Source: Hypomyces perniciosus
Lineage: Eukaryota; Ascomycota; Sordariomycetes; Hypocreales; Hypocreaceae
Length of the DNA: 64,000 nucleotides
Direction: 5' to 3'
Assembly: GCA_008477525.1 (NCBI GenBank)
Contig: SPDT01000002.1
Span: forward strand, 1,984,001 to 2,048,000
The position numbers and the translations under genes were made by a program. Below the pieces are notes generated by a model. The model saw nothing but the letters and a program-made list of their open reading frames with translations. It made no database searches and was not told the origin of the DNA. Below, in pieces: positions 33,801-62,784 of this stretch. Position 1 is the stretch's first letter. Every line of letters starts with the position of its first letter.

Positions 33801-34618
33801 TTAGTATCTCTTTTTACTTATTAACTATATATAGTCCGCGAAAAGCCTTTAAAGTGCCTATATAGCTATATCTAGGTCTCTTTTAATTAGGTTAATTATA
33901 TTTACCTTTAAGAGAAGCTAGGTATATATATATATTAGCTAGCTAAACTCTTATAAGCTTTTAAAAGGGATATATTTCTTTCCTGCACTAGCTATTAGCT
34001 TAATAAAGCTTAAAAGTAAGGTAGTAATTATATAGTAGTTTAAGCCTATATTTAAGTTTTTTATAATAGTTATTAATATAAGGCAATTAGTGAAAATAAG
34101 GTTAATATATTTTCTAGAATCCTTTATAAAGGTATTTATAAAGGCAGGGATTAGGTTATATCTTTCTGCCTATTTAATTAATTTATTGCCTATAATATCT
34201 AGAATTTAACTTAGTTACTATATCTAGTATAATATGTTAAAGTCTTTTATAATAATTAAATTTAAAGGGGGTTAACCCTACCTTTTAAAGGTTTCTATTA
34301 CAATATTAAAGGAAGCTTTATAGTAAATATTAATAATAATATAGCTATGGACTTTTATTTAGTAAATATAGTTACTTTTTAGTTTTAAAGGCAAAAGTTA
34401 TTAGTATAGTAAATTTAGTAATTTTTTAATATATATAAAGATTAAGGGTTTAGTCTCCCTTTAATTATTAAGTAGGTTAAATACTTAAAAGCTAAAGTAA
34501 GATTTTATTTATTTTTTAAATAATATAGTATTTTAATAAATCTATAGCTTCTAAATAAATATAATATTTAAGCTATCTTTTTAGGCTAGTAAAAGGGCTA
34601 TATTATAATATTATCTTT

Positions 34619-35129
34619 TATTGAAATATAGCTAATAAGTTGCAAAATATGCCTTGCTTTTAGCGAAGGCGTCTTGACTTTTATAGTTTGGTTTAATAGG
34701 TTATGAGTCCCTGCTGCTTCCACTGCGCTTAGGTTCAAATCCCAGAAAATCCCAGATTTTTTCAAGCTAGGAAATCGGCAATAAGCCTAAAGAGCAATAA
34801 GCTTAAAGTTAAACCGACTTAACCCTAGGAAGGGCTTGGGAACCCTTTGGATAAATCGGCATTATTAATAAGACCGAGGTCAAAAGTCTATTTATAGTTT
34901 AACTGAACTTTAACCTATAATTCTATAGGGATTATGTAACTTAAATAAGTTATATAGTAGTATAGTTTTAATTACTACTTAATTAGGTATAAGTTCTAAT
35001 CCAGCTTACATTTTCAATTCTTAATAATTAAAGTTTATTTAAAGGGGAATATTGAAATACAGTTAATAAATTGTAAAATATACTTTACTTTTAGTGAAAG
35101 TGTTTTTACTTTTACAGTTTAGTTTAATA
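34619..35129 (+). mobile_element. TRIM2, 511-bp miniature LTR element inside the LINE
   Basis: 80-bp direct terminal repeats at 34,619-34,698 and 35,050-35,129 (ends TATTGAAATA and TTTAATA, RIP forms of TGTTGAAATA and TTTAACA) and a perfect TSD TCTTT (34,614-34,618 and 35,130-35,134). A primer-binding site follows the left repeat and a purine tract AAAGGGGAA (35,041-35,049) precedes the right one. The 351-bp interior has no coding capacity. This is the architecture of terminal-repeat retrotransposons in miniature, which depend on enzymes of a larger element; the shared primer type points to the C Copia family. Confidence 0.85.
34699..34728 (+). promoter_or_regulatory. Extended primer-binding site, antisense of initiator tRNA-Met 5' half
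   Basis: Starting at the first base after the left repeat, the sequence begins GGTTATGAGTCC and ends CTTCCACTGCGC. Its complement contains a CAT anticodon in a CTCATAACC loop and GCGCAGTGGAAG, the D-arm of eukaryotic initiator tRNA-Met. The match runs about 30 bases with no gap, from my knowledge of this conserved tRNA. Drosophila copia is primed by such a 5' half-tRNA. Four bases downstream is a B-box-like GGTTCAAATCC (34,732-34,742). Confidence 0.7.
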
Positions 35130-35305
35130 TCTTTATTTTCCTATATTAGCCTAAAAGATTTTTAAGCTAGAGTTCTTTTAGTGGTTTTAATAGGGTCTAT
35201 TATTTATAAATTAGACTTATAGGGTTTATCTCCTTTAAGGGATTCCTTTAAAGCATTATTTATAAAGTTATTAAAATCAGTAACCTTTACTATAAAGTAG
35301 GCTAG

Positions 35306-59671: not shown

Positions 59672-60094
59672 ATGAGTGCAAAACAGACTGTTTATACCTT
59701 GAACAACGGTTCCAAAGGCGTTGAGGAAGGTCGCCTGGCTACTCAACACAACGTTTTCCTACAAACAACCAAGACACTTATCCCAGACACCATTGCGGCG
59801 CATCTGTCTTCACTCGGCCGCCAACCTGCCATTGCCGACGTTGGAACTGGCACTGGCATCTGGCTACAGAGTTTGTCCCAGTTGTTGAGTCCTGCGGCTC
59901 GTCTAGACGGCTACGATTTCGACATATCCAAGTTCCCAGAGGCAACACAACTGTCGTCCAATATTCAACTTAGTTTTGGCGATGTATTCAAGCCTTTTCC
60001 TGCCGAGGTACTAGGTATCTACGACGTAGTGCATGTGCGACTGCTCATGTTCGCTATCAAGGACGAGCAATGGGAGAGCGTTGCTGCGAATCTG

Positions 60095-60102
60095 CGCACA
60101 CT
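60095..60102 (+). repeat. 8-bp target-site duplication of the hAT element, left
   Basis: CGCACACT directly before the left terminus, identical to 63,523-63,530. Eight-base duplications are diagnostic of hAT transposition. Confidence 0.97.
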
Positions 60103-60260
60103 CAGGCTGGCGATCCATTCCATTTCCATCCACGCAGCCTTAGTTGAGTGGATGGACGTCCATTTCAGTCAACGTGCAGTGGAATGGGTGGAATGGACGC
60201 CCAGAGCAGTCGCATGGAATGGATGGAAATGGAAATGGATGCGTGGATGGGGTTACCTAA
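60103..60260 (+). repeat. Left inverted terminus and subterminal repeat cluster of the hAT
   Basis: Terminal repeat of about 19 bp followed by many copies of GGAATGG, GGATGG and TCCATTTC in both orientations. Because it is open in the methyltransferase frame, it fuses 62 Trp-rich residues to the truncated enzyme. Confidence 0.85.
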
Positions 60261-60444
60261 ATAGGAAAGGTTTCGCGCTAATAGATTAGTTACTATATAT
60301 AGTACTCACCACAGTCACTGTAACCATCTCAATGATCACCAAGCAACAAAATTCATTATACAGGATATCTCTCTTATTATACATAATTAAAACAAGCACT
60401 TTCTTAATGAGCCCAGGCTCTAGCCAGTGCGCTATAAATAAAGT

Positions 60445-62784
60445 CTAGAGAGGGATAGTACATACAATTCGCCCACCTGTTACTTCACGAGCTTCTATAA
60501 AGCTCAGTTCGGCAAGCGGATCGGTATCCGATAACTCAACCTCTTCAAGAAGCTTCTCCACACTTCGAATATATCCCCCACGAAGCCACGATCTCACCGT
60601 CTGCGTCATTCCAATTGTACTAGCATCCAGATTTGCCCGGTCATCTCGAACCATTCTGCCGGCCGTAGAGAAAAGTCTCTCAACGTCAGCAGACATTGGA
60701 AGAGTAGAAAGAACATCAAGGGCCATCCGTGATAGGCGAGGATATTCCTCCCGTCTTTCGCACCAATAGCTGATGGGATCCAGGATCCTCTGATCCGATT
60801 TATGTACGTCTCGAAACCAATCGTTATATTCATCTCCCACAGCTGACGAAGCAGGAGTGAATGGCGACTGTAATAATGCCGGCGCCTGACGAGACTCCTC
60901 GCAGTACTCGTTGAAGGGATTTCGATAAGTTCGCTGCTTCTTCATAACCGGTTCTCGGTCTCGAGAAACGACCTGCGGATCGTATTGAGACCTATACAGC
61001 CCCTCCACAAGGGACTTTGCAGTCTGGATCCATTCTGGGCGATCTGCCCATATGTCCTCAAAGTATCCCCAACGATATGCTGGATGAAGCGCGACAGCTG
61101 CATAATAGACCGATGTCTCATCAAGCCGCGAGTAGTACTCATCAAGTTTCTTCCAGCAGAGATTAATATTGACCTTGAAGTGCTCAGGGTCGGGATATCG
61201 ATGAGCAGCGGCCTTATATACCTCCATTTTATTAAGCAGGTACTCGTAGCCAAACATAAGATCCCAAGAGCATCCATATGCTTTAGTATAGCCATACTTT
61301 CGCATCCGCTGTCGACCGTCACCTTCAAGGGTAATTAAAACATGCTCAAAATGTTGGAGGACCTCGTTAAAAAGAGCGATAATATTCCAATCCTTCTCAT
61401 CGAGTTTGTTGTCATCCCTGAGACAAAGTGGCATTTCACTCCTCGACTTCTTTCCCCTTAAAATTGACCCTTCCCACTCGTTTTTCTGCCTATACCAGAG
61501 TTCTTCAAGGAAGTCCTTCAGGAGAAGAGCGCGTCGGATCATGTAAAGAGTAGAAAGCCAACGAGTTACCACATCAGTAATGACATCTAGAGGCTTTTTT
61601 GCTTGTATTGTCGGATCCTCAGACTTCTCGAACGCGACCAACTGAAGAGACCGAAGGAGATTAGTTAGTAAGTCTGAACGATGAATCCAAACGACAAGGT
61701 TATGGAGTTTCCCAATAGGGCCTTTCCGTCTCCACATCTCATGGGCCTTCGCATTAAGCGCCTCATTTCCAAGGATATCATCCTCAAATGCCTCAGAGTC
61801 ATGGCCAAAAAGCAGCGCTTTAACAGCAAGATTAAGGATATGGCCAAAGCAGCGTAATCGCCGGGTTTCTCCCTTAAAGCCCAGCGCTTTTCCGATTTCC
61901 TTCATCGCTGTATCGTTGTTGCTGGCGTTATCAAGTGTAAAGTATCCGACCTTCTGGGTTATATCATAGCTCCGAAGGATATCGACAACATGAGCAGCAA
62001 TATTCTCCCCAGAATGACGATCGACAAGCTCTGGAAGTCCAAGGACAAGTTTTTGTGGCTGGCCAACGGTATCAAGAAAATAGCAAACGATTCCATATAG
62101 AGCATGGCGATTATTCGACCTCCAGCCATCGAACGCTATGTGAATCAGCCCTGGGGCTGCCGCCAACACTCGCTTTATTTCCTCTATGTTTTCTTCGTAC
62201 ACCTTAAGGATGCGTCTGCGAACGGTATCGTGGGTGATATGTGCCTCGGTCGTCTTCACGAGGGGATTGAGGTACTCGAAAACTGCGCGGAGGTACGGAT
62301 CTTCGCTTTGTCGGAAGGAGGAATTACTGTTGATGATCCAACAGACTACCAAGCGCTGGAAGGCTAATCGATCAAAACGGCCGATGATCTGGTTGGCAAT
62401 CTGCTGTTCTCGCGAGTTATATGTGTTCAGCTTCATCATCTCGGCGATATTCCTTGATGACGTATTCTCTTTTGCTTTACTTGGCGGCTTCCGCCTGCCT
62501 GAAGGATCCCAGATGCTGTGGTCGGTCCAGAGGTGGATCTCTGCGTTCTGTGTGCCATTCGAGGCAGTCGAGTGAGGTTTTTGCTTACTACTCTTTACGC
62601 AGACCTTGCAAACCCATCGCCGCTTTGTATCATCGTCGCTCTTCTCGATATCGTAACCGAATTGCCATATCCATGACGATATGGATGCGCAACGCTGGGA
62701 TTGAGTATACCCAGGGAAGTATTTCCAAGGGAAAAGGTCCCACAGGTTCTCCTGGTCCTCCTGGGCCTGTATCTGAGGATGCAT
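60445..62784 (-). CDS. hAT-family transposase, 779 aa, intact
   Basis: Nuclear DNA transposase acting on the terminal and subterminal repeats of its own element. An N-terminal BED-type zinc finger lies at about residues 57-90 (WVCKVC, then H84 and H89). The RNase H-like core has Asp219 in HIAFDGWRSNN and Asp285 in YFTLDNASNND, the first two catalytic acids of the family; RCFGHILNLAVKALL (311-325) is the conserved C-x2-H-type segment beyond them. The C-terminal hAT dimerisation domain is at about 669-735 (DPISYWCERREEYPRLSRMA, then LPMSADVERLFSTAG). The third catalytic acid should lie before that domain; I cannot assign it by eye. Length is typical of complete fungal hAT transposases, with no stops or frameshifts. 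The start ATG at 62,784 is upstream of the zinc finger, so the protein appears complete. Confidence 0.95.
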   Translation of the reverse strand: MHPQIQAQEDQENLWDLFPWKYFPGYTQSQRCASISSWIWQFGYDIEKSDDDTKRRWVCKVCVKSSKQKPHSTASNGTQNAEIHLWTDHSIWDPSGRRKPPSKAKENTSSRNIAEMMKLNTYNSREQQIANQIIGRFDRLAFQRLVVCWIINSNSSFRQSEDPYLRAVFEYLNPLVKTTEAHITHDTVRRRILKVYEENIEEIKRVLAAAPGLIHIAFDGWRSNNRHALYGIVCYFLDTVGQPQKLVLGLPELVDRHSGENIAAHVVDILRSYDITQKVGYFTLDNASNNDTAMKEIGKALGFKGETRRLRCFGHILNLAVKALLFGHDSEAFEDDILGNEALNAKAHEMWRRKGPIGKLHNLVVWIHRSDLLTNLLRSLQLVAFEKSEDPTIQAKKPLDVITDVVTRWLSTLYMIRRALLLKDFLEELWYRQKNEWEGSILRGKKSRSEMPLCLRDDNKLDEKDWNIIALFNEVLQHFEHVLITLEGDGRQRMRKYGYTKAYGCSWDLMFGYEYLLNKMEVYKAAAHRYPDPEHFKVNINLCWKKLDEYYSRLDETSVYYAAVALHPAYRWGYFEDIWADRPEWIQTAKSLVEGLYRSQYDPQVVSRDREPVMKKQRTYRNPFNEYCEESRQAPALLQSPFTPASSAVGDEYNDWFRDVHKSDQRILDPISYWCERREEYPRLSRMALDVLSTLPMSADVERLFSTAGRMVRDDRANLDASTIGMTQTVRSWLRGGYIRSVEKLLEEVELSDTDPLAELSFIEAREVTGGRIVCTIPL

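Follow-up and report, generated by a model that had tools for sequence, protein, structure and literature searches.

A TRIM of Hypomyces perniciosus with a primer binding site antisense to half of initiator tRNA-Met, and chimeras that point to LTR exchange with a copia family at that site

Drosophila copia and yeast Ty5 prime reverse transcription from an internally cut tRNA, whereas Ty1 and Ty3 prime from the tRNA 3′ end, Ty3 making an extra contact with the D arm of initiator tRNA and carrying its second segment about 4800 nt away (accessible text of PMC5371799). Going by the accessible text of Kojima (2024, PMC10886601), half-tRNA-iMet TRIMs are already on record from fungi, where they have been ascribed to Copia helpers; these Helenus elements are non-coding, and their primer binding site (PBS) is complementary to the initiator tRNA-Met anticodon loop. 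In Triticeae, complexes have been described whose elements became joined in the course of reverse transcription and then integrated as a unit with a target-site duplication (TSD); VejuL and BARE2 appear to have arisen there when synthesis jumped from one co-packaged template to another (Sabot and Schulman 2007, PMC1950507). We describe here an element of the ascomycete Hypomyces perniciosus that bears on both of these themes. A search with one gene found its best match, 62% over 69% of the query, in Fusarium, in keeping with a filamentous ascomycete.

The window, the whole stretch of 64 kb that was analysed, holds at 34619–35129 an element of 511 bp which its sequence identifies as an LTR retrotransposon without coding capacity (a TRIM), in a decayed copy. 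Its two type A LTRs of 80 bp (34619–34698 and 35050–35129, both +) are 83% alike, the 5′ LTR reading TA..TA at its ends where less mutated copies have TG..CA; 13 of the 14 differences between the LTRs are transitions, as expected from RIP, and the surrounding region is AT-rich. A polypurine tract, AAAGGGGAA (35041–35049, +), adjoins the 3′ LTR, and the element is flanked by the unstranded TSD TCTTT (34614–34618, paired with 35130–35134). The first-pass annotation had placed a miniature LTR element at exactly these coordinates, and LTRs, TSD and polypurine tract are all there. Short direct LTRs, a non-coding interior, a PBS, a polypurine tract, a TSD, multiple copies and solo LTRs are the features of a TRIM, and all were found. 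The 5′ LTR also contains a weakly A-box-like stretch, TAGCGAAGGCG (34661–34671, +), and directly after the antisense D-arm block of the PBS comes, in sense orientation, the B-box/T-arm-like GGTTCAAATCC (34732–34742, +), which is GGTTCGAATCC in many other copies (one base is changed in the window), followed by a T6 run (34757–34762, +). All three were read from the sequence, TAGCGAAGGCG and GGTTCGAATCC being likened to what we take to be the A-box and B-box consensus; together these two motifs are possibly a Pol III promoter or a captured piece of tRNA. A tRNA gene within the element was rejected, as ARAGORN called none and neither the tRNA model nor any other Rfam family reached its cut-off there.

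The element thus resembles Helenus as a non-coding fungal TRIM with a 5-bp TSD and a PBS antisense to the anticodon loop, but the LTRs of Helenus hold a tRNA-like unit of A and B boxes, whereas the 80-bp LTR here has at most the A-box-like motif, the B-box-like one being found outside it, in the interior; moreover, in the accessible text Helenus is listed among fungi only from Basidiomycota (PMC10886601). The A- and B-box pair within the LTR that marks Helenus/TRIMp3 is therefore absent. Elsewhere in the window lie a decayed copia reverse transcriptase (RVT_2; 117–755, that is, C5:1984117-1984755) and, in its GC-richer end, a 779-aa open frame with a hAT dimerisation domain above cut-off (60445–62784, −) beside a frame whose methyltransferase matches were below cut-off (59672–60289).

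A search of the 44-Mb genome with the TRIM gave 48 candidates, 40 of which were scored: 16 LTR-interior-LTR copies, seven TRIM interiors behind a different LTR, and 17 matches consisting of the LTR alone or little more. Exact 5-bp TSDs flank 12 of the 16 complete copies, the other four failing this test. Among 14 further LTR matches (L070–L083), 12 are solo A LTRs, eight of them with exact TSDs; this count leaves out L081, which has a junction with copia (see below), and L083, where the last 29 bases of the interior and the end of the copia LTR stand before an A LTR.

Each of the 23 interior copies examined has the PBS segment immediately next to the LTR, and in every one of them it carries the tRNA complement, as the first-pass annotation would lead one to expect. 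In the window (34699–34728) it matches the reverse complement of the 5′ half of the genome's own initiator tRNA-Met, over anticodon loop, anticodon stem and D arm, at 24 of 30 positions without gaps; the runner-up place in the window, on either strand, reaches 20 of 30, and shuffling the window 100 times produced no match to the 30-mer. The proposal of an antisense initiator tRNA-Met segment is borne out by this alignment, although the complement is not the continuous one of 30 bases that had been described. A proximal block (34699–34710, +; 11/12) is antisense to the anticodon loop and adjoining stem; a mismatched middle of four bases, CTGC (34711–34714, +), stands opposite canonical tRNA positions 25–28, around G26; and a distal block (34715–34728, +; 13/14) is antisense to the D arm, canonical positions 10–24. 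Besides the middle, the mismatches fall at 34708, a T that could form a U·G wobble, and at 34715. Over the 23 copies the match to the antisense of tRNA positions 10–40 ranges from 17 to 25 of 30, the best copies having nine exact bases, the T at position 10 (a possible U·G pair), two exact, four mismatched and 14 exact. The complementarity keeps one register from C40 to G10, ending at tRNA position 9. The PBS of Drosophila copia starts in initiator tRNA where the one here starts, and those of copia and Ty5 are about 15 nt long, without a D-arm block; both of these elements are autonomous, whereas the TRIM is non-coding. Because the match is to the 5′ half of the tRNA, this is not a 3′-end primer site of the Ty1/Ty3 type. 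A better primer among other tRNAs was sought and rejected: of 24 genomic places matching the start of the TRIM PBS with up to two mismatches, 22 were element copies and the only two others had two mismatches each (backwards controls, 1 and 1).

A pattern search with the initiator tRNA 5′ half, allowing three mismatches, found 20 places, three of them tRNA genes and 17 element copies, against one match for the backwards control. The three genes (C3:2821612-, C4:5188473+ and C23:3649227-) are identical over the first exon and extend over L032:1490-1615 (+), L036:1539-1413 (−) and, approximately, L031 1539-1414 (−). Two of them score above the cut-off of the Rfam tRNA model, the third reaching 27.8 against 29 bits. 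Each has an insert of 54–55 bases between canonical positions 46 and 47, which begins with GTAAGC, holds CTAAC and ends in AG, and which we liken to a spliceosomal intron on what we take to be the fungal motifs. With the insert removed, ARAGORN reads a 72-base tRNA-Met in all three; with it kept, the default mode calls no tRNA in these genes, and the intron mode misses two of them and wrongly calls L036 as Arg. No intron-free initiator tRNA gene was seen among the 20 places. The inserts in L031 and L036 also hold a T-arm-like TTCGAAAC, which makes a duplicated 3′ half another possible origin. The accessible text of Kojima (2024, PMC10886601) mentions an intron of an initiator tRNA gene after the anticodon, a different place from that seen here, and among the papers listed by a literature search, which lay outside most subscription journals, none was seen to describe a nuclear initiator tRNA with a spliceosomal-type intron.

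The likely helper of the TRIM, judging by the sequences compared below, is a large family with a 571-bp LTR, hereafter LTR B (641 candidates in the genome, 40 scored). It belongs to Ty1/copia, as indicated by RVT_2 (PF07727) matches inside L061–L065; a gag_pre-integrs match in L062 stayed below cut-off (25.9 against 28.4 bits), and a second piece that was searched gave no family. Of 102 candidate copia 5′ leaders, 40 were scored, and 20 were fetched among those without a preceding LTR A. In all 20 sampled junctions LTR B, which in L091 lacks its last two bases, runs into GGTTATGAGCCCGG (exact in three) or into a C>T/G>A variant of it; this is a 14-nt complement of tRNA positions 27–40. The PBS is thus of the kind found in half-tRNA-primed Ty1/copia elements, with 14 nt in the copia family and 9 + 2 nt, then the D-arm block, in the TRIM. 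At the LTR end and over the beginning of the PBS the two elements agree, with near-identity across about 16 nt; over the first 14 PBS nucleotides the predicted duplex is weaker in the TRIM (−19.7 against −27.2 kcal/mol). Elsewhere in the autonomous element, 200-nt segments scored for a D-arm complement averaged −15.7 kcal/mol, the best reaching −25.3. A second, Ty3-like part of a bipartite PBS in the autonomous element had been considered for L061 and L062 and was rejected when L064, L065 and the LTR B search showed these to be copia/TRIM chimeras.

Junctions between each LTR and each interior were searched with RIP-tolerant patterns, the backwards controls of all four giving no match. We found 16 A/TRIM junctions, one of which (L008) has a B-like LTR tail; 16 A/pol matches, of which 10 are clear and six, with two or three mismatches, are B-like or unclear; eight B/TRIM matches, seven of them clear and the eighth being L008; and 95 B/pol matches, three of which are shared with the six unclear A/pol ones. 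The 5′ LTR A of L008 (L008:1930-2009) ends in TTATTTCAACA, which is the B ending, whereas its 3′ LTR does not; from this sequence L008 may be a small mosaic adjoining the PBS. There are thus 17 mixed junctions (10 A/pol and seven B/TRIM) in 14 loci, and all are joined exactly at the boundary of LTR and PBS. The type of PBS follows the interior and not the LTR, being of copia type in the 10 A/pol junctions (with one transversion in L067) and of TRIM type in the seven B/TRIM ones. Exact TSDs flank two A-pol-B chimeras, L064 (ATTTA) and L065 (GAACT), and two A-pol-B-TRIM-A chimeras, L061 (TTTAT) and L062 (GATAT), which indicates that these four were inserted as chimeras. The TSD test covered nine chimeras, outside which were L019, L066, L067, L069 and L081; the remaining five of the nine, L009, L014, L021, L063 and L068, gave no exact TSD. 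L063 contains an insertion, and in L014 a B-TRIM-A unit runs straight into the copia PBS and leader, the mirror order of L061 and L062. L068 (L068:477-7840) is a B-pol-B-TRIM-A composite with a possible TSD, AATAC, three bases past the end of LTR A; the intervening AGT could be leftover PBS bases. Both subtypes of LTR A occur among the 10 A/pol chimeras (six and four), which points to at least two origins.

We consider it very probable that the TRIM is primed by a 39-nt half of initiator tRNA, is mobilised by the 571-bp-LTR copia family and has exchanged LTRs with it at the PBS, a reading built from comparison of the copies. Initiator tRNA-Met would be cut to a 39-nt 5′ half (canonical 1–40), which would anneal at the LTR boundary of TRIM RNA and prime synthesis, and copia-family proteins would copy and insert the TRIM. 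With both elements co-packaged, plus-strand strong-stop DNA of one could anneal, through its copy of the PBS, to minus-strand DNA of the other. One normal round of reverse transcription yields two identical LTRs, so that the two different LTRs of A-pol-B require two nucleic acids, and the junctions point to intermolecular plus-strand transfer through the shared half-tRNA PBS as the simplest route. The chimeras might also stem from recombination between cDNAs before insertion, at the roughly 16 nt of identity in LTR end and PBS, and the A-pol-B-TRIM-A composites may have arisen by the same kind of transfer or by recombination through B. Counting against the overall reading are the weaker proximal PBS of the TRIM and the want of an exact TSD in four of the 16 complete TRIM copies and in five of the nine chimeras tested. 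The near-identity of LTR end and PBS, and the same five chimeras, would suit ectopic DNA recombination between TRIM and copia copies already inserted; yet a crossover between two insertions would unite different flanks, and the identical 5-bp TSDs of four chimeras are those of a single insertion, so that we regard this origin as very improbable. The Triticeae complexes differ from the intermolecular exchange proposed here in that their switch is placed at R and their outer LTRs are alike (PMC1950507), whereas here unrelated LTRs meet exactly at the LTR/PBS boundary and an A-pol-B element is bounded by a different LTR on each side.

How deep the half-tRNA is read bears on the origin of the D-arm block. 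The resemblance of the 30-nt segment to the tRNA can hardly be due to chance at all, given the absence of any match in the shuffles, the gap of four positions to the next best place in the window and the position directly at the LTR boundary in 23 copies. The first-pass annotation suggested reverse transcription deep into the fragment, and the 30-nt PBS could in that case be renewed in each cycle, in keeping with a complement that holds one register from C40 to G10 and stops at position 9. In yeast tRNA, G26 is dimethylated, and the mismatched middle of the PBS surrounds tRNA G26; position 9 of this initiator tRNA is presumably methylated too, as in yeast. Position 9 is a site of N1-methylation in tRNAs of Archaea and Eukarya (accessible text of PMC7293042). 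A tRNA template would give C at PBS position 10 and GGCG at positions 13–16, but T10 is kept in 23/23 copies and CTGC in 22/23 (TTGC in L017), so that routine copying past nine bases finds no support. Among the 22 aligned interiors (L022, whose interior is interrupted, being left out), transversions or gaps affect the distal 14 bases at a rate of 0.019 and the rest at 0.024, and 231 of 337 internal windows of 14 nt are conserved at least as well; the copia match, moreover, ends after 14 nt in the 20 sampled. Deep copying as a recurrent step does not survive these counts, and we judge renewal in each cycle very unlikely. That selection for annealing of the primer maintains the extended complement, as with the additional segments by which Ty1 and Ty3 contact the tRNA, is less remote but still rather unlikely. 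The predicted duplex with the 39-nt half is stronger for the TRIM (−52.7 kcal/mol in the window, −54.9 in L006) than for two copia sites (−42.0 and −40.4), about −30 coming from the distal part alone, although these energies ignore tRNA folding; and conservation of the 30 nt taken together is somewhat above average (rate 0.011, equalled by 58 of 321 windows), an edge that stems from the proximal nine bases and the mismatched middle, which has no transversion or gap. Against it, the distal block shows no excess of conservation and its transition rate is above that of the rest (0.114 against 0.069), the damage being mostly RIP-like decay, which leaves the comparison with low power. Our preferred reading of the D-arm block is that the TRIM lineage acquired it from the tRNA sequence at its founding, possibly by a single read-through of the half-tRNA, and has carried it since without renewal in each cycle, perhaps with a gain in annealing strength. 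As a tentative proposal, which we hold slightly less probable than its contrary, the half-tRNA PBS would be a crossover hub for LTR swaps between TRIM and helper, and the founding read-through would have passed G26 with errors there and stopped at a methylated position 9.

Exchange of LTRs between a TRIM and a copia family at a half-tRNA PBS is new as far as the literature found goes, LTR-swapped chimeras of this kind being unreported in the literature searched, outside most subscription journals. The accessible text on Helenus names neither a D-arm extension nor LTR-swapped chimeras, the PBS being compared by text with Figure 3 aside (PMC10886601), and with that figure reserved the D-arm-extended PBS, in an ascomycete, appears new as well. 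Through the fixed PBS mismatches it can be tested simply to what depth reverse transcriptase reads into a half-tRNA primer. Intermolecular exchange at the second strand transfer is known mainly from retroviral constructs, and the chimeras provide natural sequence evidence for it. Parasite and probable helper occur together in the genome of H. perniciosus, each apparently with the same cut tRNA as its primer, and, if the hub proposal is true, exchange there would build integrating elements of the forms A-pol-B, B-TRIM-A and A-pol-B-TRIM-A.
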